A stretch of DNA of 64,000 nt. Source: Streptomyces sp. R44. GTDB lineage: Bacteria > Actinomycetota > Actinomycetes > Streptomycetales > Streptomycetaceae. A program made the translations under genes and the position numbers. The stretch covers positions 1,550,001 through 1,614,000 of the forward strand of contig NZ_CP163444.1 of assembly GCF_041053105.1 (NCBI RefSeq). Direction: 5' to 3'. This document shows, piece after piece, positions 10,319 through 23,127 of the stretch (positions within the stretch are counted from its first letter, which is position 1; each line of letters starts with the position of its first letter). Below the pieces are notes generated by a model that had not been told where the DNA came from, did no database searches, and worked only from the letters and a program-made list of their open reading frames with translations.

Positions 10319-10765
10319 TCACCCTCCCGAGGGCAGGCCGGTCCGGGGGGCCGTCGTGAGGTGGGCCCCGACCCGCTTCACCATCAGCGTCATCTCGTAG
10401 GCGACCTGGCCGACGTCCGAGTCGGCGTCCGCGAGCACCGCGAGGCAGCTTCCGTCGCCGGCGGCCGTGACGAACAGGAAGGCGTCCTCCAGCTCGACGA
10501 CCGTCTGGCGGACCTTGCCCGCCTCGAAGTGGCGGCCGACGCCCTTGGCGAGGCTGTGGAAGCCGGAGGCCACGGCGGCGAGGTGCTCGCCGTCCTCCCG
10601 GGTCAGCTCCTGGGAGGCGCCGGTGGGGAGTCCGTCGCTGGAGAGCACCAGGGCCTTCCGGATGGACGCGACGCGCTGGACGAGCTCGTCGAGGAGCCAG
10701 TTCAGCTCGCCGTTTCCGTGTCCGTGTCCGGACGTGCTGGGTGCTGCGGCGTTCGGTGCGGTCAT
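10319..10765 (-). CDS. cvnB: Roadblock/LC7 protein, CvnB family
   Basis: 148 aa. A roadblock/LC7 domain occupies residues ~20-125, opening LNWLLDELVQRVASIRKALV and containing LSSDGLPTGAS. These domains commonly regulate small GTPases, fitting a partner role with CvnD. The start is the ATG at 10765, overlapping the cvnA stop by ATGA. A short Gly/His-rich N-terminal tail precedes the domain. Confidence 0.92.
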   Translation of the reverse strand: MTAPNAAAPSTSGHGHGNGELNWLLDELVQRVASIRKALVLSSDGLPTGASQELTREDGEHLAAVASGFHSLAKGVGRHFEAGKVRQTVVELEDAFLFVTAAGDGSCLAVLADADSDVGQVAYEMTLMVKRVGAHLTTAPRTGLPSGG

Positions 10766-13557
10766 CGACCGTCCCCCTCGGGTGTCGTTCCTGGTGCTGT
10801 CGTGTCGTCCGGCTCTGTGCTGTCCCGCCGGCCGCGCTGCCAGCCACGCTGCATGGCGGCCATGCGCGCGCGTACCTCCTCGGCGTCGCGCTCGAAGGAG
10901 TCGGGTCCGTCGGCCGGCGTCCCGGTGCCCGTACGAGCGTCGGAGCGTGCTCCCGCACGGCCGGCCCGGCCCTCGGTCTCGCGCAGCTGGGGCGCGAGGC
11001 TGGCCTGGCGGACGCGGCGGGGCAGACCGCCGAACGGGTCCGGCATCTCCGGCGACGGCGCCTCGGGACCCTGATCCTCCGGCCGCAAGGAGCCGCCGGG
11101 GCGTCCGGGACTCTCCGGGCGTACGGGGACCAGCGTCGGGCCCATGGCCGGCGAGAGGTCCCGGCGGTCTCCCCACGGGTCGTCCTGCGGGTGCGCGCGG
11201 TCCGGCTGCGCGTGGGCGCCGTCCGGCTCGTCGAGGCGGCGGCCGTGGTCCACGACGAGCGTCGGGGTGCGGCGGCGCGGCAGCGGCACGGGACCGGGGC
11301 GCGTCCCGTCGGCGGGGGCGTCCTGGCCGGCGGTGCGGTCCTGGGCCTGCTCGTGCTGCTCGCCGGCCGGCGCGAGGCCGGTGCGGCGCCGGTCGCGGGG
11401 CCGGAAGAGGCCACCGCGCTCGCTGTCGCTGTCGAGGAGGTCCGCCGAGCGGTCGAGGAGGACGTCGAAGTCCTCGGTGCCGAGCGGCGCCTCCAGCTCC
11501 ACGGGGCCGTCCAGCGGTCCCGGAACCTCGGTCACGTCGGGGACCTTCGTGAGGGCCGGCCTGCGGGTGGGCAGGGCGCCGGCGTCGGCGGAGGGGTCGT
11601 CGGGCCGCCCGGGGCGCTCCAGGGTCGTGCGGTCGAGCCGGAATCCGGCGCCCTGGGTCTCGGGCGCGTCGGTGAGCAGCGCGGCCGGGATGAAGACGAC
11701 CGCGGTGGTCCCTCCGTACGGGGAGGTCTGGAGCGAGACGCGGACGTTCTGGCGCTGGGCGAGCCGGCTGACCACGAAGAGGCCGAGGCGGTCGGTGTCC
11801 GAGAGCTCGAACTCGGGGGTCTCGGCGAGCCGGAGGTTGGCGTCGAGCAGGGCGTCGGGGTTCATGCCGAGGCCGCGGTCGTGGATCTCCAGGGTGAAGC
11901 CGTTGGCCACCCGCTCGCCGAGCACCTGGACGGCGGTGTGCGGGGGCGAGTACACCGTGGCGTTCTCGAGGAGTTCGGCGATGAGGTGGGTGAGGTCCGC
12001 GACGGCGGGGCCGCCCACGCCGAGGCGGGGCAGTCGGCGCACCTCGATCCGCTCGTAGTCCTCGACCTCGGCGACGGCGGCGCGGACCACGTCCATGAGC
12101 TGGACGGGCTTGCGCCACTGGCGGGAGGGGGCGGCGCCGGACAGGATGACGAGGCCCTCGGCGTGCCGGCGCATACGGGTGGTGAGGTGGTCGAGGCGGA
12201 AGAGGTCGGCCAGCTCGTCGGTGTCCTCCGTGCGCCGCTCCATGGTGTCGAGGAGGGTCAGCTGACGGTGGAGCAGGACCTGGTTGCGGCGGGCGAGGTT
12301 GACGAACACCTCGGAGACGCCTCGGCGCAGTTCCGCCTGCTTGACGGCGGCCTCGACGGCGGCGCGCTGCAGGGTGTTGAGGGCCTGGCCGACCTGGCCG
12401 ACCTCGTCCTCGCCGTACTTCAGGTGGGGCACCTCGGTGCCGACGTCGACCTGCTCGCCGGCGGCGAGGCGGCGCATGACGCTGGGCAGCCGGACGCCGG
12501 AGACCTCCTGGGCCTCCTTCTGCAGGCGGCGCAGGTCGCGGATGAGCGCGCGGCCGATGCGGAGGGAGATGACGATCGAGGCGATGAGGGCGAGGAAGCC
12601 CAGGACACCGGCGATGCCGACCTTGAGGAGGACGCTGTACGCGGCGGGCTTGACGCGTTCCTGGTAGCGGTCGCCGGCGGCGGTGTTCTCGCGGGCCAGG
12701 TCGTCGAGGACGGGGCTCGCCTGGTCCTGCCAGCGCTCGGCGGTGATGGCGCGCGGGCTGCCGGTGGCGCCCGCTTCGATGATCGCGTTCTCGGCGGTGC
12801 GCAGCGGCAGGGTCTTGGGGCTGCGCCAGTACTTCTCGAAGTGCTCGCGCTCGGCGGCGGGCAGGAGTTCGAGGTTGACCTCGTAGAACGCCACGCGGTT
12901 GGCGACGAGGTCGGATATCGCGCGGATCTCCTCGGCGGTGACGCGGTCCGCGACGAGCGCGGAGAGGACGAGGGCGTCCTCGCGGGAGAGCAGCTCACGC
13001 GCGCGGGTGATGCCGACGAGGGCGCGGCCCTGCTTGTCCATCTCCACGTTCTCGAGGGCGTGGAGGGTGATGAGGAAGCTGTAGCAGGGGTCGACGAGCC
13101 GGTTGTAGAACTCGAGGGCCTGCATGCGGCCGATGCCGCGGTTCTCGACGGAGCGGCGCAGCGAGGCGAGGCCGTCGAGCGCGTCGAGGAGGGAGTTGAG
13201 CCGCTGGGCGGTGACGGGCCGCATCTCGTCGCGCACGCCGGGGTCGGCGGCGTTGGCGCGGATGCGGGCGATCTGCCGGTCGGTGGCGCGGCGCGTCTCG
13301 CGCAGGGAGGCGAGGGCGTCGGATCCCCGGGGGTCGGCGAGGTAGATGAGCGACTGGCGGCGTTCGATCTGGATGACCCGGGCGGTGTCCTCCAGGGGGT
13401 AGCCGACCTTCTCGACGATGTAGCCGACGTCGAGGAGCTGATCGGCCTCCCGGCCCGTCAGGACCGTGGCGAAACCCCACAGTCCGGTGAGGGAGACGAG
13501 CGGTACGAGCAGCAACGCCACGATCTTCCTGCGGATGGACTTCCCGCGAAAGCGCAT
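10762..13557 (-). CDS. cvnA: Conservon sensor histidine kinase-like protein, CvnA
   Basis: 931 aa membrane protein. The first membrane segment is near residues 10-32 (IVALLLVPLVSLTGLWGFA). A ~270-residue extracytoplasmic nitrate/nitrite-sensing-type helical domain follows, then a second membrane segment (VGIAGVLGFLALIASIVIS), a HAMP-like linker, and a HATPase_c domain (ELLENATVYSPP as N box, HDRGLGMNPDAL as G1). The last ~280 residues are disordered, rich in Pro, Arg and Asp. A phospho-acceptor His is not obvious, as in other conservon sensors. The ATG at 13557 was chosen because MRFRGKSIRRKIV is the conserved family start; a GTG at 13587 has AAGGA five bases before it and is a real alternative. 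Confidence 0.9.
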   Translation of the reverse strand: MRFRGKSIRRKIVALLLVPLVSLTGLWGFATVLTGREADQLLDVGYIVEKVGYPLEDTARVIQIERRQSLIYLADPRGSDALASLRETRRATDRQIARIRANAADPGVRDEMRPVTAQRLNSLLDALDGLASLRRSVENRGIGRMQALEFYNRLVDPCYSFLITLHALENVEMDKQGRALVGITRARELLSREDALVLSALVADRVTAEEIRAISDLVANRVAFYEVNLELLPAAEREHFEKYWRSPKTLPLRTAENAIIEAGATGSPRAITAERWQDQASPVLDDLARENTAAGDRYQERVKPAAYSVLLKVGIAGVLGFLALIASIVISLRIGRALIRDLRRLQKEAQEVSGVRLPSVMRRLAAGEQVDVGTEVPHLKYGEDEVGQVGQALNTLQRAAVEAAVKQAELRRGVSEVFVNLARRNQVLLHRQLTLLDTMERRTEDTDELADLFRLDHLTTRMRRHAEGLVILSGAAPSRQWRKPVQLMDVVRAAVAEVEDYERIEVRRLPRLGVGGPAVADLTHLIAELLENATVYSPPHTAVQVLGERVANGFTLEIHDRGLGMNPDALLDANLRLAETPEFELSDTDRLGLFVVSRLAQRQNVRVSLQTSPYGGTTAVVFIPAALLTDAPETQGAGFRLDRTTLERPGRPDDPSADAGALPTRRPALTKVPDVTEVPGPLDGPVELEAPLGTEDFDVLLDRSADLLDSDSERGGLFRPRDRRRTGLAPAGEQHEQAQDRTAGQDAPADGTRPGPVPLPRRRTPTLVVDHGRRLDEPDGAHAQPDRAHPQDDPWGDRRDLSPAMGPTLVPVRPESPGRPGGSLRPEDQGPEAPSPEMPDPFGGLPRRVRQASLAPQLRETEGRAGRAGARSDARTGTGTPADGPDSFERDAEEVRARMAAMQRGWQRGRRDSTEPDDTTAPGTTPEGDGR

Positions 13558-13992
13558 GGCCTCCCCCAGCTCGGCCCCCGTGCGCACGGGGGTCCTTCAC
13601 GTTCGTGACGTCCCGCGTCAACACGCGGCGTCAACCTCGAATTTCAACAAACGGCGGCGCGAGCCTACTACTGCATCACGGCCATCCCGAAGGCGTGTCC
13701 GAGCTATTTTCAGCCTGTCGAGTGAGTGTTGATCATGAGATGTCCTGGTATTACGGGAGTTGGGATCGGCCACTGTGGCGTAGGACACCTGATGGTGTGC
13801 CATTTCTCCGGCTCACACAGATGGCTGGAACTGTTCGTTCCGCAAGGACATGGAGCACCTTCGTCCCCACCCGGACGAAACCTTTTCCCTCTCTCGTGCG
13901 TCAATACGTACGGGGAGGGTTCTGTCCGCGTAAAGGGGCTCAAGACGGGCAGCCACTCCTGAAGTCGTTCAGTGGTGGGGAGTGACAGGACA
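13558..13992. other. Divergent intergenic region between cvnA and a small membrane protein
   Basis: About 435 bp, clearly less GC-rich than its surroundings, as expected for divergent promoters. I found no convincing -35/-10 pair. The one structure noted is a short inverted repeat GGAAC-TGTTC-GTTCC at 13827-13841, possibly an operator. Short open frames here have no supporting ribosome binding site or codon bias. Confidence 0.5.
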
Positions 13993-14361: not shown

Positions 14362-14367
14362 GCGAAG

Positions 14368-14412
14368 ACGGCGAGCGGCCCGGTCCCCGAAAGGGGCCGG
14401 GCCGCTCGCCGT
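14368..14412. terminator. Bidirectional terminator hairpin
   Basis: A 20-bp GC-rich stem with a single T bulge and a GAAA loop; arms begin ACGGCGAGCGGCCCGG and end CCGGGCCGCTCGCCGT. It lies between the convergent small membrane protein gene and the SMC-like gene and can serve both. Confidence 0.85.
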
Positions 14413-14446
14413 TGTACGACCGGGAGGCCGCGTCCGTACCGCCGGA

Positions 14447-17400
14447 CTACGCGTCGCCCGCCGGGGCCGGGTCGTCCGACTGGTGGCGGCGGAACATCCG
14501 CGTCGCCGTGATCTCGCCGTGGATCGTCTCCCCCTCCGCGCCGGGCTGCGGCAGCCCGGGGCGCAGGTGCTCCTCCACGCTGATGTACTTCAGCCCCGCC
14601 CGCAGGTCCGCGTCGTTGCGCAGCCGGATCACCAGCGGGAACTCGGCGAGCGCGGTCGTGTCGAACAGGCCCGTCGTGTAGAGGAGCTGGACGCCCAGCG
14701 CGTCCGACACGGCCCGCTGGAGCTCCAGGAGGTACGTGGCGTTGGCGCGGCCGATCGGGTTGTCGAGGAACAGCGTGCCCGCGTGCCGGTGCTTGTCGCG
14801 GCCCCGGTCGTTGGAGCGGAGCGCCGCCATCGTGCAGTACAGGGCGATGGCCGCGGTGAGCAGCTGACCGCCGGAGAAGACGTCGCCCATCTGCCCGACG
14901 GGGACCCGCTCGGCGCGCAGCACGGCGTCCGGCTTGAGGATCTCGACCGAGACGCCCTTGGGTTCGAGCGCGGCCTGGACGCCGCGCAGGAGCAGGGACA
15001 TGCCGTCGCGCCGCAGGTCGGAGTTCTTCTTGACGGCGGCCCGGGTCGCCTCGTCGACGACCTCGCCGAGCCGCTCGGCGAGCGTGGCCTGGTCGGGCTC
15101 CTCGAAGCGGATGCGCAGGAACTCCTGGCCCGACCACTCGCCGAGGCCCTCGGGGAGCCGGGAGAGGCGCTGGGCGGAGCGGAGCGTCGCGAGCGAGGAC
15201 TCCACGAGGCCGCGCAGCCGGTCGACGATCGAGTCCCGGTTGCGCTCCAGCTGCTCCAGCTCGTCGGTGAGGACGCGCAGCCGGGGCGCGAAGGCCTCGG
15301 CCCACTTGGCGGCGTGCTCGGGCAGGGCGGACGCCGGCAGTTCGCGGATCTGCTGGCGGGCGGGGGTGCGGACCTGCTCGTAGCGGGTGGAGTTGGCGTG
15401 GCGGACGAGGATGTCGCTCGCCTCGCGCACGGACGCGTCGGCGGCGGACAGCTCGGCGGTGCAGCCGCGCAGCGCCCGCCGCGCCTCGGCGGCCGTCGTG
15501 CGGGCCTCCTCCAGGGTGCCGGGGTACGGCTCGGTCTCCTCCCGCTCCTCGTCCGCGTGGTCGCGGAGCAGGTCCCGCAGCAGCGCCGCCGTCTCGTCGA
15601 AGCCGCCGGCCGCGTCCTCGGCGGCCCGGTGGTCCCGGAGGAGTCCGGCATGGGCGGCGCGGGCCGCGTCCAGGGCGTCGGTGCGGGTGGCCAGTTCGGT
15701 GGTGGCGGTACGGAGCAGGGCCTGGGCCCGCTCGGCGTCGGCGGGCACCAGCTCCTCGGGGAGCTCGGTGTGCGCCTCGCCGTCCTCGGGGGCGAGGCGC
15801 TCGGCCTCGCCGCGGAGCCGGCCGAGCTTCTCGCTCGCCTCGGAGGCGCGGGTCTCCAGCATCTGGACGAGGGCCTCGGCGCGGGCGGCGGCGGCCTGCC
15901 GGGACGGGCCGTCGGCGCCGTCGGTGGACTCCAGGAGCTGTTCGGCGCGGGTGCGGACCTTGTTGGTGAGGCGGTCGAGCTCGGCGAGGGCGGCGGACTC
16001 GTCGCTCTCGGCGCGGGCCTGCTCGGCGCGCAGGTCGGCGCCGACGCCGACCTTCTCGTACACCTGGGAGGCGGCCCGGTAGGCCTCGCGGAGGGTGGGG
16101 AGCGCGGCGCGGGGCGCGTCCGGGTCCTCCTCCGGGAGGGTGTCGGGGGCGCCGGCGATCTCGGCGCGCTCGGCGCGCAGGGCGCGGGCGGTGCGGTGGG
16201 CGTCGTCGGCGGCGCGCTGGGCCGCGCGGCGGTCCTCGTCGGCGGCGCGGGCGCGCTCCAGGCAGGTCTGGGCGCGGGCCTCGGACTCGGTGGCGTCGTC
16301 GGCGAGTTCGCGGAGCTTGGACTGCCAGGCGGACCGCTCGCGCAGCCGGAACGCCAGGCCCGCGAGGGCGTCGGCGACCCGGCGGGCGCGCTGGGCGGCC
16401 TCCTGGCGCTCGTCCCGGAGCCGGGCGGCCTCGGTCGCGGCCTCGTCGGCCTCCGTACGGGCCGTGCGGGCCACCTCCAGGGTGGCGGCGGCGGCTTCGG
16501 CGGTCTCGCGGGCGGTGGTGGCGACGGACGCGAGCTCGGCGAGCATCCCGAACGGACAGTCGGCGCGCCAGGCGCCGATCCGGGACGCGAGGGCGCGGTC
16601 GCCGGCGAGGCGGGCGGCGAGGGTGCGGATCTCCTCGTCGCGGGCGGTCGCGCGGGCGCGCAGCGCGTGCCGCTCCTCGTCGGCGGCGTGCTCGTCGTGC
16701 ATGGCCGGGTTCGGCGGGACGAGGAAGACCCCCGTGTCCTCGGCCGTCTCCTGGGCGGGTACGGGGGCGAGCAGGGCGGCGGCGGTGCCCACGGCGACGG
16801 CGGAGCGCGGCAGCAGGGCGGCGCTGCCGAGGACCTCGCGGGCGCGTCCGTACGAGATGGGGTCGGTGATCACCACGCCGTCGACGAGCTCGGGGCGGGC
16901 GGCGAGGACCCGGGCGTGGTCGGCGGGGTCCACGGCCTGGGCGAGGTAGCGCCAGCCGGGGAGCGCGGGGATGCCGTGCTCGCCGAGGTACTCGACGGTG
17001 GCGAGGACGTCGGGGCCGGGCGGCAGCAGGCCGCCGTCGCCGAGGGCGCCGAGGATGCGGGAGTCGTCGGCGGCGGCGGTGCGCAGTTCGAAGAGCTGGC
17101 GTTCGGCGGAGCCGACGGCCTGGTCGAGCAGGCCGCGCAGCTCGTCGGCGTACCGGTCGAACTCGGTGACGGTGAGCGGGCCCTGGGGCTCCGAGCCGGG
17201 TCCCGTCCCCTCCTCGGGCTCGGCGTCGGAGGCGGTGGCGGCGCGCTGGCCCGGGAGCGGGGAGCCGGAGGACGGCAGGCTCAGGAGTTCCGCGAGGCGC
17301 TCCTCCGAGGCGAGGGACTCGGCGGCGCGGCGCTCCGCGTCGTAGGCGTTCCCCGCGGCCTCGGCGGCGTCGGCGGCGCGGGCGGCCGCGAGTTCGGCGC

Positions 17401-19114
17401 GGGACTCGGCGCCGGCGGCCTCACGCGCGCGTTCGGCCGCGGTGCGGGCGGCCTCGCGGGCCGTGTCCCAGGCGGCGACCGTGGTCTTCTCGGCGTCGCT
17501 CGCGGCGAGCGCGGCGCGGGCCGGGTCGGCGTCGGGGGCGGTGTCGTCGAGCCAGCCGGCCCGTACGGCCTCGGCGGTCTCCTGCTCGACCTCGGCGAGC
17601 CGCTGGCGCAGGTGACCGGCCTCGCTGCGGGCCCGCTGGGCCTCGGTGGCGGCGGCGGTGGCGTCGCGGTGCGCGGTCTCGCTCGCGTCCTGGAGGGCGG
17701 TCGAGCGTTCCTCCTCCTCCGCGGCGTGGCGCTCGCCCTCCTCGGCGGCGGCGGCGAGGGCCCGTACGAGATCGGCGGCGGCCTTGGCGCGGGCGGCGAG
17801 GGCGGGGGCGGCGTCGCGCTCGGCCTCGCGGATGGCGGCGGCCACGCGCGCGGAGCGGTCACCGGCGGCCCGGTGGCGCAGCACCGCCTCGGCGGCCTGC
17901 CAGGCGGAGTGCAGGGTGCGGGCGTCGGTGAGTTCGCGGCGCTGGGCGGCGGCGCCCTTCTCGGCGGCGGTCAGTGCCAGGGAGGCGTGCCGGTAGGCGA
18001 GTTCCGCGGCGATGAGGGAGCTGCGGCTGCGGGCGGTCTCGGCCTCGGCGACGGCGTGTCCGGCCGAGGTGACCTGCTGGGCGAGTTCGGCCGCGCGACC
18101 GCGCTCCTCGGCGGCGCGGGCGGAGAGCCGGCGGGCGAGCGTACGGGTGCGGCGCTCGGCGCCCGAGTGGATCTCGCGCGCGTGGGCACGGGTTCCGGCG
18201 GCTTCGACGATCCGGCCGAGGAGGTCCACGGAGCCGGCGGTGAAGTCGCGTTCGGCGGTCAGTTCGGCGCGGCGGCCGAGCTTGTTGCCGAAGCCGCCGA
18301 CGAGGTCGGCGAGGCCGTCGGTGTCGCGGGTGTCGGTGACGGCGCGCAGCAGCAGGTCGGTGAAGTCGGAGTCCTTCTTGACCGCGAAGAGGCCGGCGGC
18401 CTCGCCCTCGTCGGCGTTCATCTCGCGCTGGTAGCGGAAGAGTTCGGGGTCGAGGCCGAGGTCGCCGAGGTGCTCGTTCCAGCGGTCGTGGATCTCCTCC
18501 CAGACCACCTCCAGGTGCGGATAGGCCTTCCCGGCCTCGGTGAGCGCGTCGCGGAAGCCCTTCATGGTGCGGCGGCGGCCGGTCGCGCCGGAGGCGCCCT
18601 CGACGGGCGGGCGGACGGACGTCGCCTCGGCGACGGGCAGGTTGTCCAGGCTGAGTCCGGGGCCGGGGCGGAAGGAGTACCAGGCCTCGGCGAACTTCCG
18701 CGGGTCGTTGGAGACCTGGCGGCCGCGCCACTCGCTGGCCTTGCCGACGACGACGAGTTCACCGGTGAGGGTGTGCTGCCACTCCAGGGCCACGTGGCCG
18801 CAGTCGTCGGCGAGGAGGAACTTGCGGAGCACGCCGGAGCTGGCGCCGCCGAGGGTGTTGCGGTGGCCGGGGAGCATGACCGAGAAGATCAGCTTGAGGA
18901 GGACGGACTTGCCGCCGCCGTTCTCCAGGAAGAGCACGCCCGCGGGGGCCGGGCGGCGCGGCGGGCCGACCGGGTCCTCCTCGAAGAACTCCGCCTGGGT
19001 GGGGGCGGGGTGGGGCACGGGCGCGCCGACTCCGCGCAGGTCCAGGACGGTGTCGGCGTAGCGCGCACCGGCGGGACCGATGGAGTAGAGGCGGACCCGG
19101 GACAGCTCGTACAT
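14447..19114 (-). CDS. Giant SMC/MukB-like ATPase
   Basis: 1555 aa. ATPase head halves sit at the two ends: Walker A LENGGGKS at residues 63-70, signature FSGGQ at 1413-1417, and Walker B LFLDNP at ~1448-1453. Between them are two long Ala/Glu/Arg-rich coiled-coil arms (about 300-600 and 820-1330) around a globular, hinge-like part (~640-780, containing GIPALPGWRYL). This is the layout of MukB, MksB and JetC, which extrude or trap DNA loops. The residue after the Walker B Asp is Asn (codon 14761-14759) where ABC/SMC ATPases normally have the catalytic Glu. The gene is last in an operon with kleisin-like and MukE-like genes; 39 bp separate it from the preceding stop. It could act in chromosome organisation or plasmid defence; no JetD/MksG nuclease gene is adjacent. 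Confidence 0.8.
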   Translation of the reverse strand: MYELSRVRLYSIGPAGARYADTVLDLRGVGAPVPHPAPTQAEFFEEDPVGPPRRPAPAGVLFLENGGGKSVLLKLIFSVMLPGHRNTLGGASSGVLRKFLLADDCGHVALEWQHTLTGELVVVGKASEWRGRQVSNDPRKFAEAWYSFRPGPGLSLDNLPVAEATSVRPPVEGASGATGRRRTMKGFRDALTEAGKAYPHLEVVWEEIHDRWNEHLGDLGLDPELFRYQREMNADEGEAAGLFAVKKDSDFTDLLLRAVTDTRDTDGLADLVGGFGNKLGRRAELTAERDFTAGSVDLLGRIVEAAGTRAHAREIHSGAERRTRTLARRLSARAAEERGRAAELAQQVTSAGHAVAEAETARSRSSLIAAELAYRHASLALTAAEKGAAAQRRELTDARTLHSAWQAAEAVLRHRAAGDRSARVAAAIREAERDAAPALAARAKAAADLVRALAAAAEEGERHAAEEEERSTALQDASETAHRDATAAATEAQRARSEAGHLRQRLAEVEQETAEAVRAGWLDDTAPDADPARAALAASDAEKTTVAAWDTAREAARTAAERAREAAGAESRAELAAARAADAAEAAGNAYDAERRAAESLASEERLAELLSLPSSGSPLPGQRAATASDAEPEEGTGPGSEPQGPLTVTEFDRYADELRGLLDQAVGSAERQLFELRTAAADDSRILGALGDGGLLPPGPDVLATVEYLGEHGIPALPGWRYLAQAVDPADHARVLAARPELVDGVVITDPISYGRAREVLGSAALLPRSAVAVGTAAALLAPVPAQETAEDTGVFLVPPNPAMHDEHAADEERHALRARATARDEEIRTLAARLAGDRALASRIGAWRADCPFGMLAELASVATTARETAEAAAATLEVARTARTEADEAATEAARLRDERQEAAQRARRVADALAGLAFRLRERSAWQSKLRELADDATESEARAQTCLERARAADEDRRAAQRAADDAHRTARALRAERAEIAGAPDTLPEEDPDAPRAALPTLREAYRAASQVYEKVGVGADLRAEQARAESDESAALAELDRLTNKVRTRAEQLLESTDGADGPSRQAAAARAEALVQMLETRASEASEKLGRLRGEAERLAPEDGEAHTELPEELVPADAERAQALLRTATTELATRTDALDAARAAHAGLLRDHRAAEDAAGGFDETAALLRDLLRDHADEEREETEPYPGTLEEARTTAAEARRALRGCTAELSAADASVREASDILVRHANSTRYEQVRTPARQQIRELPASALPEHAAKWAEAFAPRLRVLTDELEQLERNRDSIVDRLRGLVESSLATLRSAQRLSRLPEGLGEWSGQEFLRIRFEEPDQATLAERLGEVVDEATRAAVKKNSDLRRDGMSLLLRGVQAALEPKGVSVEILKPDAVLRAERVPVGQMGDVFSGGQLLTAAIALYCTMAALRSNDRGRDKHRHAGTLFLDNPIGRANATYLLELQRAVSDALGVQLLYTTGLFDTTALAEFPLVIRLRNDADLRAGLKYISVEEHLRPGLPQPGAEGETIHGEITATRMFRRHQSDDPAPAGDA

Positions 19115-19153
19115 GGGGCGGACTCTCGTCGTCTCGTTCGTGATCAGGCGTGA

Positions 19154-20056
19154 TCAGGCGTGGAAGGGCAGGCCCGCGTCGGCGGCGAGTTCCAGGTCGT
19201 CGCCCTCGGGCGGCGGGAGGAGGGTCGCGGAGCCGTCGCTGACGGGGACGACGCCGAGTTCGAGGAGCTCGGCCATGGCGGCGGAGCCGGCCATGTCGCG
19301 GACCTGGAGCTGGTAGCGGGCGGTGGTGCGGTAGGAGCCGCCGCCCTCGTCGCCGGTGCGCTGGAGGAAACCGGAGTCGGTGAGGAACGCGGCCGCCTTG
19401 CCGACGATGCCGGTGGTGGAACCGGCGAGGCGGCGGGCGTCCTTGGTGGCTCCGGTGGCGCTGCGGCGCGCGTAGATCCGCCAGGCGGCCTCCAGGCCGG
19501 GGGCGTCGGAGGCCGGGTCGGTGTTCTCGCCCTGCTCCTCGGCGCGCTGTTCGAGGCGCAGACAGGCCTGGCGTACGAAGGCGTCGACGCCGTTGACCGT
19601 GAGGCGGCCGATGTACGCGTCGTCGGCGAGGTCCTCGGGGCGGGGGAAGGCCATGGCGGCGACCGCGAGGTGGGCCAGGCCGTGCAGGAACCGGTCGGCG
19701 GAGTCCGTGTTGGCGCGGCGGGCGTAGTCGCCCATGCGGACCGCGAAGACGGAGTCCTCGCCCGCGGTGACGGCCATCCCCGCGCGCGGGGACACCTCCA
19801 GGACGACGAGTCCGAGGCCGGTGGCGACGGCGTCGGCGAGGCGCGCGAAGGCGGAGTCCTCGCGGTAGCGGCGCAGCAGCTCGGTGTACTCGGCGTCGCG
19901 GGCCGGGAGCAGCTTGGGCTGGAGCCCGAACGAGACGAGCCGGGCCGCGTCGGCGGCGTCCGCGGGGGTGACGGCGGAGGAGGTGGTGGCGGCCGGGGGC
20001 TGCGGGGGCTCCTGCTCGCTCCACGCGTCGGCGTACTCGGCGTGGGTTTCGCTCAC
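19154..20056 (-). CDS. MukE/JetB-like accessory protein of the SMC complex
   Basis: 300 aa, starting at a GTG that overlaps the preceding stop (GTGA). After a ~35-residue disordered N terminus it is mainly helical. The segments FVRQACLRLEQRAEEQ and IVGKAAAFLTDSGFLQRTGD, followed by YRTTARYQLQVRDM, look like winged-helix units with a closing beta wing. Size, fold type and position between the kleisin-like and SMC genes fit MukE/MksE/JetB proteins, which bind the kleisin and gate DNA entry. Sequence alone gives only moderate support; I would not assign a function without the neighbours. Confidence 0.6.
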   Translation of the reverse strand: MSETHAEYADAWSEQEPPQPPAATTSSAVTPADAADAARLVSFGLQPKLLPARDAEYTELLRRYREDSAFARLADAVATGLGLVVLEVSPRAGMAVTAGEDSVFAVRMGDYARRANTDSADRFLHGLAHLAVAAMAFPRPEDLADDAYIGRLTVNGVDAFVRQACLRLEQRAEEQGENTDPASDAPGLEAAWRIYARRSATGATKDARRLAGSTTGIVGKAAAFLTDSGFLQRTGDEGGGSYRTTARYQLQVRDMAGSAAMAELLELGVVPVSDGSATLLPPPEGDDLELAADAGLPFHA

Positions 20057-20787
20057 GGCTGGGGCTCCTCGGTACGGCTCTCGGTCGGTACGGCGCGGGG
20101 TAGGGGCAGCGGGACGGGGGTGACGGCGGCGGATCCGGCCGTGCCGGGCCGGGCCACGGGCGTGGGCGGCTCGTCGGTGAGCCGCACGGCCCGCACGGCC
20201 GGGAGGTCGCGTCGCCGCGCGGGCGGGGTACGGACCGGCTCGGGCACGGACACGGTCCCGAACCGCGGCCGGCCGGCGGTCGGAGCGTCCCCCTCGGGCC
20301 GGGGCAGGCTCTCGTCGCCGGCCCGGGCCCCGGTGGGCGGTTCCACGGGCACGGCCCGCTGCGGCGGGAGGTCGGCCGGGGCGCCCTGGACGGCCCCGGG
20401 TGCGACGTCCTGCTCGGGAAGAAGCGCGGCGTCGGCCTCCCGTACGGTCTCGGCCCGCGACTCCGGGACGGACTCGGCGGCCTGCTCCGGTACGGGGACG
20501 GTGGCCTGCTCCGGTACGGGGGCAGTGGCCTGCTCCGGTACGGGGGCAGTGGCCTGCGGCTCCGGGACGGACTCGGTGGTCCGCGGCTCCGGGACGGACT
20601 CGGTGGTCCGCTCCGGTACGGGCACCGGTTCCGTCACGGGCTCGCGCTCCGGTACGGCGGTGTCCGCCGGCTCGGCGGGGGACGGGACGGGCGCGACGGC
20701 AGGCGCCTGCTCGGCGGTGGCCGGCACGGGTGCGGCGGGGAGGGCGGCGTCGGAGGCGCCCGCCCGGGCCTCGGGGACGAGGGTCAC
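20053..20787 (-). CDS. Pro/Glu-rich disordered protein embedded in the SMC operon
   Basis: 244 aa with no recognisable domain. It is dominated by Pro, Glu, Val, Ala and Thr and includes octapeptide repeats VPEQATAP encoded by 24-bp tandem DNA repeats (20479-20550) and further VPEPRTTES copies. The C-terminal third is Arg-rich (RRRDLPAVRAVRLTDE). It starts with a GTG overlapping the kleisin-like stop and ends overlapping the MukE-like start (both GTGA), so it is translated as part of the operon. It may be a flexible linker or DNA-contacting tail subunit; classical MukBEF and Wadjet loci have no such gene. That it is a protein rests on the frame being fixed by both overlaps and on codon usage. 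Confidence 0.6.
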   Translation of the reverse strand: MTLVPEARAGASDAALPAAPVPATAEQAPAVAPVPSPAEPADTAVPEREPVTEPVPVPERTTESVPEPRTTESVPEPQATAPVPEQATAPVPEQATVPVPEQAAESVPESRAETVREADAALLPEQDVAPGAVQGAPADLPPQRAVPVEPPTGARAGDESLPRPEGDAPTAGRPRFGTVSVPEPVRTPPARRRDLPAVRAVRLTDEPPTPVARPGTAGSAAVTPVPLPLPRAVPTESRTEEPQP

Positions 20788-22328
20788 GTGGCCTCCGTGC
20801 GGTCCGCGGCCATGCCCGCCGCGTCGAGCAGGGCCGTACCGACGATCAGGTCGGCGCCGCCGAACTCGGGGTCGTCGAGCGGGGTGCCGTCGTCGACGGC
20901 GAAGAGGAGCCGCTCCTCGCCCTGGCGGTAGGCGGTGCCGACCGGCGGGCTCGCCGCGTGGACGGCGAGGAGGGCGACGAGGTACGGAAGGTCGGCATCG
21001 AGGCGCCGGGCCTCTGCGAGCAGCCCGGAGAGGCGGCGCGGGGCGTCGTGCTCCAGGTCCAGCAGGCGCATGGCGCTCGCGAGCTGCTCCTCGCTGAAGC
21101 GGGAGTCGTCGGGGGTGGCGATGAGGTCGGGCTCGGGCATCTCCGCGCCGAGGTGCTCGCGCTCGACGGGCGGGGTGAGGAGCAGGTCGACGAGGTCGCC
21201 GAGGCGGACGGAGGCGGGGGTGCGCAGTCCGGTGCCGTGGGCGAAGAAGGCGTCGGTGACGCGGGTGGCCTGCTCGACGGGGAGCGGCAGGACGGGGGCG
21301 ACCAGCTGCCCGTACAGGTCGAGTCCGGTGTACGTCGTGGGGGCAGCGAAGGCCTGCCGGTCCTGCTCGGCGCGGAAGAGCGGCCCGGCCTCCAGGAGGC
21401 GGGACTGGAGCTGGGTGTGGCGCCGGATGCAGTCCTTGACTATGTCGACGAGCTCGGCGGCGCGCCGCTTGTGCTCCGCGGTCTTGGCGTCGGACGTGGC
21501 CTCGGCCTCGTCGCGGGCCTTGCGGATGTTGGTGAGGATCGCGTTCTCGTGGCGGTAGCGGTCGGCCACGTGGTCGAGCGCCTCGGCGATCATGTCGGGG
21601 ACCGTGTGGAGCCAGTCGACGGCGCGGACGTTGCGCCGGGTGGCCTCCAGGGTCTTGCGGAGGGTCTCGGCGTACTGCACGGTCCGGTAGCGCGCCTGCT
21701 CGGCGGCGAGCTGGGCGTCGGCGAGGCGGCCCCGGTTGATGAGGACCTCCAGCTTCACCTCGGCGGCGATCTGGGCGCTGGTGACGTCGGTGTCGAGGGC
21801 TCCGACGAGCACGTTGACCGCTTCGTCGGTGGTGCGGAGGTAGACGCCGCCGCCGTATCCGGGGACCTCTTCGATGAGCTTGAAGTCGTAGTCGCGGCGG
21901 ACGTAGACCCCGTCGGTGCCGAAGGTGCCGTAGACGGCGCGGAAGCCGCGGTCGACGCTGCCGACGTTGATCAGGTTCTCCAGGACCCAGCGGGCCACGC
22001 GCTCGTGCTCGGCGGCGGGGCGGCCGGGGGCCTGGGCGGCGACGCGGGGCAGGAGGCGGGCGACGATCTGCTCGTGGTCGGCGCCGGTGTCGAAGTCCAT
22101 GTTCAGCGTGATGAGGTCGATCGCGGCGAGGGCCACCTCGGCCATCGCGTAGACCGTGTACTCGCCGGCCAGGTTCGCCTTGCGCGCGTCGAGGTCGTGC
22201 AGCGGGGCGGTGCACGCGAGCGCGCGGAGGCGCCGCGCGAGCCCTTCGTCGGCGGCCGGGCCCTGCGCGGGGCGCGGCCCCGCGCTGAGCTGGGGCGGAG
22301 CGAGGTCCGTCGAGGCAGGCGAAGTCAC
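20784..22328 (-). CDS. Kleisin-like (MukF/JetA-like) protein of the SMC complex
   Basis: 514 aa, first gene of the four-gene operon. The N-terminal ~190 residues are helical with winged-helix-like elements (YVRRDYDFKLIEEVPGYGGG). A long charged helical stretch (~195-310, e.g. RDEAEATSDAKTAEHKRRAAEL) is typical of the kleisin helical arm that touches SMC coiled coils. The C-terminal part (~320-510) is another small globular domain with EEQLASAMRLLD. The order kleisin, MukE-like, SMC matches jetA-jetB-jetC. The start is a GTG with no clear Shine-Dalgarno; a TAATCT hexamer lies seven bases upstream, suggesting a leaderless transcript. Assignment is from architecture and context. Confidence 0.6.
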   Translation of the reverse strand: MTSPASTDLAPPQLSAGPRPAQGPAADEGLARRLRALACTAPLHDLDARKANLAGEYTVYAMAEVALAAIDLITLNMDFDTGADHEQIVARLLPRVAAQAPGRPAAEHERVARWVLENLINVGSVDRGFRAVYGTFGTDGVYVRRDYDFKLIEEVPGYGGGVYLRTTDEAVNVLVGALDTDVTSAQIAAEVKLEVLINRGRLADAQLAAEQARYRTVQYAETLRKTLEATRRNVRAVDWLHTVPDMIAEALDHVADRYRHENAILTNIRKARDEAEATSDAKTAEHKRRAAELVDIVKDCIRRHTQLQSRLLEAGPLFRAEQDRQAFAAPTTYTGLDLYGQLVAPVLPLPVEQATRVTDAFFAHGTGLRTPASVRLGDLVDLLLTPPVEREHLGAEMPEPDLIATPDDSRFSEEQLASAMRLLDLEHDAPRRLSGLLAEARRLDADLPYLVALLAVHAASPPVGTAYRQGEERLLFAVDDGTPLDDPEFGGADLIVGTALLDAAGMAADRTEAT

Positions 22329-22416: not shown

Positions 22417-23127
22417 TCAGCCGGCGGGGGCCGTCGGATCGTCGACGGCCTGGGCGTAGGCGGCGGCCACGCGGGTCCGGGAGTCGTCGAGGTAGCGGGC
22501 GAGGAGCCGCTCCGCCGAGGCCCGCTCGCCGGCGCGCAGGGCGTCCAGAATCTCCCGGTTTCGCCGGAGGTAGGGCTCGTGGAGCGCGCGCGGGTCGTCG
22601 ACGACGTGGAAGGCGAGGCGGAGTTCGGCGAGGACACCGCGCATCAGTTCGTCGGTGCGGGCGCTGCCGGCGAGGGCGACGAGTTCGCGGTGGAAGTGGA
22701 TGTTGGCCGTGGAGACGCCCGTCCAGTCGTCGGCGCGGGCGGCGGCCTCGCCCTCGGCGACGGCGGCGGCGAGGCCGTCGACGGCGAACGGCGGCTGCCC
22801 CAGGCCCCGTACGACGGCGCATTCGACGAGTCGGCGGGTGCGGTAGATGTCGTCCACGTCACCGACGGCGAGGACGCGGACGAAGACGCCCCGGTTGAGC
22901 TCGTGGACGAGCAGGCGCTCGTGGGTGAGGAGCCGGAAGGCCTCGCGGAGTGTGTTGCGGGACACACCGAGGGCGCCGCCGATGCTCTCCTCGGAGAGCC
23001 GCGAGCCGGGCGGGAAGTAGCCCTCGGCGATCCGGGTGCGCAGGATGTCCGCGACCCGCTCCGCCGTGCTCGTGCGCCCCAGGAGCACGCGGTCGTCCGT
23101 CAGCCCTCCGGCCCCACTCAGGTCCAC
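22417..23127 (-). CDS. GntR-family regulator, FadR/FCD type
   Basis: 236 aa. An N-terminal winged helix-turn-helix (AERVADILRTRIAEGYFPPG then LGVSRNTLREAFRLLTHERL) is followed by an all-helical FCD ligand domain with metal-type residues (FHRELVALAGS). It is divergent from the MFS-pxpABC operon, so it probably represses that operon, with 5-oxoproline or a related acid as inducer (inference). The palindrome at 23201-23217 inside the facing promoter is its likely operator. The start is a GTG with GAGG four bases upstream. Confidence 0.9.
   Translation of the reverse strand: MDLSGAGGLTDDRVLLGRTSTAERVADILRTRIAEGYFPPGSRLSEESIGGALGVSRNTLREAFRLLTHERLLVHELNRGVFVRVLAVGDVDDIYRTRRLVECAVVRGLGQPPFAVDGLAAAVAEGEAAARADDWTGVSTANIHFHRELVALAGSARTDELMRGVLAELRLAFHVVDDPRALHEPYLRRNREILDALRAGERASAERLLARYLDDSRTRVAAAYAQAVDDPTAPAG

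Follow-up and report, generated by a model that had tools for sequence, protein, structure and literature searches.

A conserved Wadjet type III core operon without the JetD nuclease in Streptomyces sp. R44, a candidate second chromosome-organising complex

The chromosome of Streptomyces sp. R44 (NCBI RefSeq assembly GCF_041053105.1, contig NZ_CP163444.1) carries, in the 64,000-nucleotide stretch analysed here (positions 1,550,001 to 1,614,000; hereafter the window), a jetA-jetB-jetC operon for a structural maintenance of chromosomes (SMC) complex on the minus strand at 14447..22328. With slightly better than even confidence, we read this locus as a Wadjet type III-derived complex that has lost the nuclease JetD and works as a MukBEF/MksBEF-like loop extruder, organising the chromosome beside the canonical Smc without cutting DNA. 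In streptomycetes, the Wadjet core thus probably now serves as a second complex for chromosome organisation. Loop extrusion and this cellular role are inferred from the family identity of JetA and JetC and by analogy with MksBEF.

JetA (20784..22328, minus strand, 514 aa) matched the PADLOC profile PDLC00567 (JetA3) with 609 bits and an E-value of 1.5e-183, its residues 23-512 aligning to positions 6-495 of the 504 in the profile. JetC (14447..19114, minus strand, 1555 aa) matched PDLC00588 (JetC3) with 1409.6 bits (E 0) and contains the SMC ATPase motifs Walker A (ENGGGKS), signature (FSGGQ) and Walker B (LFLDNPIG). By these profile matches, both proteins belong to Wadjet type III, and a kleisin fold is predicted for JetA because of its similarity to JetA3. 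Pfam and NCBIfam gave no families above cut-off for jetA, jetB, jetC or the Pro/Glu-rich open reading frame (ORF) located between jetA and jetB. An earlier interpretation made from the letters alone (the sequence-only reading) had proposed four ORFs in this order, the first three joined by GTGA overlaps, and had called them a Wadjet/MukBEF-like SMC operon without a nuclease. The minus-strand coordinates and the GTGA overlaps joining jetA, the Pro/Glu-rich ORF and jetB bear this out, and the JetA3 and JetC3 matches narrow the assignment to Wadjet type III.

The third subunit, JetB (19154..20056, minus strand, 300 aa), had no direct match in PADLOC. It shares 48.5% identity with its counterpart from a locus that does have jetD (L035, jetABCD), and that counterpart matches the PADLOC JetB3 profile weakly (E 8.5e-4). 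The conserved core of JetB is preceded at the N-terminus by a variable extension of some 30 residues. An AlphaFold2 model based on a 44-row alignment (mean predicted local distance difference test score 67.5, predicted template modelling score 0.44) holds two winged-helix-like units with a helix-helix-helix-hairpin-like arrangement. When this model was compared with 350,542 PDB chains using Foldseek, 8dk1_E, 8as8_C and 8dk1_F took ranks 1, 4 and 6, none of them significant (the best, 8dk1_E, had an E-value of 0.13), and the table gives these as Wadjet JetABC entries without naming the subunit. The model moderately supports a KITE (tandem winged-helix) fold. For the MukE-like fold that the sequence-only reading had expected of this protein, the two winged-helix-like units speak with moderate confidence. 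Comparisons at the sequence level, against MukF, MukE and the PDB, returned nothing relevant, and hhalign gave a probability of about 0.2% each for JetA against MukF and JetB against MukE, using shallow profiles and single-sequence targets.

The absence of JetD was analysed with two probes, the Pfam family PF09983 (JetD_C) and a profile built from eight JetD3 proteins. The genome of strain R44 consists of one contig of 8.9 Mb and is 100% complete; PF09983 had no matches anywhere in it, the window included, and the JetD3 profile had none at E ≤ 10. The latter profile is effective, since it detected JetD in other genomes of the same genus and family (12 of 150 and 11 of 121, respectively). PF09983 matched 18 of the 150 genus genomes, and a JetD-like protein was found by one or other profile in 22 of the 150. 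Among the 147 genus genomes with JetA3, 125 had no JetD by either probe, and in the family sample 109 of the 120 JetA3-matching genomes gave no JetD3 match. The JetD proteins of four loci that were scanned (L031, L035, L077 and L129) matched the PADLOC JetD3 profile PDLC00594 with 367-409 bits. The jetC end is included in 124 loci, 22 with jetD and 102 nuclease-free (organisms may recur among loci). For 100 of the latter, the window among them, the sequence continues for 1.15 kb or more after jetC, and up to 4 kb of it contained no match to JetD with an E-value below 0.5. The missing nuclease, which had been noticed in the window alone, is therefore absent by both profiles from the whole genome.

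The jetABC core is near-universal and syntenic in the family and is under purifying selection. We used 150 genomes of the window genus and 121 genomes of its family, which we read as Streptomycetaceae and whose other genera may also carry the name Streptomyces. The JetA3 profile matched 147 of the genus genomes and 120 of the family genomes, counts that may include non-core types, as in G445, whose only type is a distant, JetD-bearing one (L092). The conservation across Streptomyces that the sequence-only reading had proposed to check was thus found. The three genus genomes without JetA3 (G050, G073 and G079) also had no match to the window JetA; two of them are less than 90% complete and the third is fragmented into about 1140 contigs. 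JetA identity in 15 core copies of the genus is 85.5-91%, and a NIT-domain histidine kinase gene and a 129-aa ORF, both neighbours of the operon in the window, were found within the fetched stretch in 12 and 13 of the 15 core loci, respectively. The closest named locus among the best 80 of 527 is that of Streptomyces sp. Root431 (L153), whose Jet proteins are 97-98% identical to those of the window. Ratios of nonsynonymous to synonymous substitution rates (dN/dS, NG86 method) for jetA, jetB and the two jetC heads were 0.05-0.24 in comparisons with six of the eight relatives used and 0.18-0.37 for the remaining two, which are the most distant; pairs of JetD-bearing copies gave 0.07-0.23. The ATPase motifs are retained as well: Walker A is intact in 109 of 111 nuclease-free N-terminal matches, the signature motif is kept, and none of the 102 jetC ends from nuclease-free loci has lost Walker B. 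The absence of JetD is not decay, because JetA3 is near-universal and mostly JetD-free, the neighbouring genes are shared, the ATPase motifs are kept and dN/dS is low.

Other jetABC copies in the same genus are rarer, patchy and JetD-bearing. More than one JetA3 match was present in 13 of the 150 genus genomes, which include all 11 genomes with a strong JetD3 match; in the other two, the extra match is a fragment (G128) or the window JetA has one place only (G141). The twelfth JetD3 genome, G003, has a weak match (E 4e-4). In all 17 non-core loci that run past jetC (eight from the window genus, seven from other genera of its family and two from a further family, f18), jetD directly follows jetC, although two of them (L090 and L093) were chosen knowing that a JetD match lay there. 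One further locus (L082) is incomplete, and its genome, G384, has a JetD3 match on another contig. Two side observations concern these copies. In G090, a second JetA lies near both contig ends (C1:8870-10297 and C1:9228837-9230264) with JetD3 matches beside both, so that the duplicates are perhaps located in terminal inverted repeats. In L091 (3869-6778), also a JetD-bearing copy, jetA falls into two frames that lie far apart, which an insertion may have caused.

A 55-row quick tree of JetA, JetB and JetC heads placed 23 family-core and 15 f18 rows in one nuclease-free clade (Shimodaira-Hasegawa-like approximate likelihood ratio test support 97) with one change of JetD state; five of the f18 rows are incomplete and were coded JetD-free. 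Among the best 80 of 527 loci, nuclease-free copies occur in Amycolatopsis, Prauserella, other Pseudonocardiaceae, one Pseudonocardia and one Cellulomonas. In Amycolatopsis rifamycinica (L129), whose jetABC shares up to 98% identity with nuclease-free sister loci, jetD is nonetheless present after jetC, on a segment of about 1.08 kb (16672-17753 of that locus) that lies within the jetC 3' end. The alignment with five relatives stops near the jetC end and resumes straight after the jetD stop codon, and the resumed stretch corresponds to the last jetC codons of the relatives, left behind the cassette. Most simply, this arrangement is read as the insertion of a jetD cassette into an operon that lacked the nuclease. 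These data suggest a wider proposal, to which we give somewhat less than an even chance, that the type III Wadjet core of actinomycetes is a two-state module. The nuclease would have been dropped before the Streptomycetaceae radiated, the JetD-less state, which would also mark the Pseudonocardiaceae, would be a conserved second condensin of these antibiotic producers, and a single jetD cassette could re-arm it, as in A. rifamycinica.

In Wadjet, JetABC is the motor and sensor and JetD is the cutter, as described in PMC10586767. Once the nuclease is gone, ATP-driven compaction of DNA without cleavage would be expected. The genome of strain R44 has a canonical SMC gene (G000:6090739), so JetABC would be a second SMC complex, acting alongside the canonical one. 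The sequence-only reading had left two options, a second chromosome-organising condensin or a plasmid-sensing system with a distant effector. The conserved, syntenic and mostly JetD-free pattern favours the former, and the latter is weakened, as far as JetD is the effector, by its absence from 125 of the 147 JetA3-bearing genomes.

Known systems offer several comparisons. The window locus resembles Wadjet type III (JetABCD) in its JetA and JetC profile matches and A-B-C gene order, and paralogous jetABCD loci exist in the same genus, but it has no JetD, is near-universal and syntenic, and its JetB carries the variable N-terminal extension. MksBEF of Pseudomonas aeruginosa is likewise a Wadjet-like SMC complex without a nuclease, which, according to PMC10586767, probably arose by JetD loss and contributes to chromosome organisation; it belongs to another phylum, the likeness is drawn from descriptions, and its function has been reported, whereas that of the streptomycete complex is deduced. 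MukBEF of enterobacteria shares the nuclease-free kleisin-KITE-SMC order (mukF-E-B) but replaces Smc-ScpAB (PMC10586767), in contrast to the jet operon, whose genome keeps the canonical SMC. The MksBEFG/EptABCD complexes of Corynebacterium and Mycobacterium are also actinobacterial SMC-like kleisin-KITE-SMC complexes but include the MksG/JetD nuclease and serve in plasmid defence (PMC10123090 and PMC10586767). The jetD-less Wadjet I of Stenotrophomonas maltophilia is similar in having conserved jetABC genes without jetD at one chromosomal site, as described in PMC11680222, but it is of type I, whereas the streptomycete core is of type III and under purifying selection.

Several observations weigh against a chromosome-organising role derived by nuclease loss. 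A catalytic Glu usually follows the Walker B Asp in SMC proteins. In JetC, this position is occupied by Asn (LFLDNPIG) in all 102 JetD-free rows and, alike, in the JetD-bearing ones, where the pattern was found in 20 of 22; the Asn may slow ATP hydrolysis, which for JetC is a prediction. A strong JetD3 match in G323 (C1:1241398-1242396) lies about 5.8 Mb from the single JetA on the same contig; this match is either an orphan jetD or part of a jet locus with a diverged jetA. PF09983 also gave JetD-like proteins in 11 further genomes of the genus. The link between JetD and second JetA copies is accordingly not a strict one. Family f18 carries JetA3 in only 19 of 35 genomes, and an 84-row tree, on which the JetD state must change at least four times, does not settle the order of losses and gains. 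Core-type jetA looks frame-broken, with split matches, in G498 (C4:1149582-1151051) and G505 (C1:1536005-1537494), and the core jetC of G447 (L094, 6120-11881) matches in pieces and in different frames and may be frameshifted or mis-sequenced. Finally, the authors of the S. maltophilia study call its conserved jetD-less Wadjet I "probably inactive" (PMC11680222).

Among the alternatives, the one that survives best is a nuclease-free system against mobile elements, in which JetABC would sense small circular DNA (plasmids or excised integrative elements) and restrict it by compaction or silencing, in the way proposed for Smc5/6. In Wadjet, sensing is attributed to JetABC, and a model in which Smc5/6 compacts circular viral DNA has been described (PMC10586767). 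The near-universal, syntenic and highly conserved core is unlike the patchy JetD-bearing copies of the same genus, and we regard this alternative as rather unlikely. An effector in trans, that is, an unrelated nuclease encoded elsewhere that stands in for JetD, would fit the use of the JetD_C and JetD3 profiles only and the JetD-like proteins present in 22 of 150 genus genomes; it appears improbable given that neither profile found one in the R44 genome or in 125 of the 147 JetA-bearing genomes, while neighbourhoods were compared with the window genes alone and no unbiased search for other nucleases was made. Both the silencing and the trans-effector explanations are less likely than a second condensin. 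The JetD-less core might instead be an interchangeable host platform that mobile jetD cassettes re-arm, as suggested by the jetD segment within the 3' end of jetC in A. rifamycinica, followed by the last jetC codons of the relatives, and by the near-identity of its JetABC to JetD-free sisters (up to 98%); this is a single clean case among the loci seen, from outside Streptomyces and from a draft assembly, and we give the platform the same low probability as the effector in trans. That the operon is an inactive or decaying leftover of a defence system is the least credible explanation, for although one of four Wadjet genes is missing, three copies (in G498, G505 and L094) look broken and the S. 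maltophilia system provides a similar case, JetA3 is present in 120 of 121 family genomes, dN/dS is 0.05-0.24 for six of the eight relatives, and the Walker motifs are intact in 102 of 102 (B) and 109 of 111 (A) nuclease-free sequences.

Wadjet loci without a nuclease are already in print for other bacteria, namely as Pseudomonas MksBEF, in S. maltophilia and in Paenarthrobacter, where a genome table in PMC11719660 lists one Wadjet with JetA, JetB and JetC only. A survey of Actinobacteria reported Wadjet in 42% of them, with enrichment toward Streptomyces chromosome ends (PMC10482375); it counts Wadjet systems, and its main text does not mention JetD. A recent paper on Streptomyces SMC does not mention Wadjet and has MksB once, in a reference title (PMC13121528). 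In the open-licence literature, judged mostly by titles, we recognised no account of this locus, nor any of a Streptomyces Wadjet lacking the nuclease. If our proposal is correct, a second SMC complex with an apparently unstudied function exists in nearly all streptomycetes, and the two states of the operon would represent a natural experiment on the conversion of a nuclease-armed defence machine into a housekeeping one, and possibly on its reversal. Surveys of defence systems should distinguish armed from unarmed Wadjet loci.

The Pro/Glu-rich low-complexity ORF (20053..20787, minus strand, 244 aa) has no families in PADLOC, as in Pfam and NCBIfam. A search of 41 genomes found it in two, the R44 genome included, and its counterparts are in Streptomyces sp. 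Root431 (L153) and G004. In the comparison with L153, it shows 47% identity, a dN of 0.50, a dS of 0.56 and a dN/dS of about 0.9, whereas the jetA, jetB and jetC heads in the same comparison show 97-98% identity and dN/dS values of 0.05-0.15. The aligned ends of jetA and jetB are about 10-250 bp apart in 15 core loci, as opposed to about 730 bp in the window. By these comparisons, the ORF is confined to a lineage, and constraint at the protein level is not apparent in it. The short jetA-jetB gap elsewhere, the rare counterparts and the dN/dS value therefore indicate a three-gene jetABC operon plus a lineage-specific low-complexity ORF, so that of the four-gene operon of the sequence-only reading jetA, jetB and jetC stand as conserved genes and the Pro/Glu-rich ORF does not.

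At the end of jetC, a GC-rich hairpin (14365..14450) with a 20-pair stem lies between the convergent jetC and the 129-aa ORF. With a folding energy of -65.6 kcal/mol for the 86-nt stretch (z -7.0 relative to 200 shuffled sequences), it is very stable and a probable terminator; a consensus scan did not list it. As for the flanking genes named in the sequence-only reading, the GntR regulator upstream of jetA (22417..23127, minus strand) is supported by Pfam GntR and FCD matches, and the membrane nature of the 129-aa ORF, which has no Pfam or NCBIfam matches above cut-off, is read from hydrophobic stretches only. The GntR/FCD gene is present in eight of the 15 core loci, in six of them with the MFS gene alongside, and probably belongs with the divergent MFS/LamB-YcsF genes rather than with the jet operon. 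Beyond the operon, the NIT-domain histidine kinase gene is followed by one for a Roadblock/LC7 protein (window positions 10319-13587), a pair which we take to be conservon-like.

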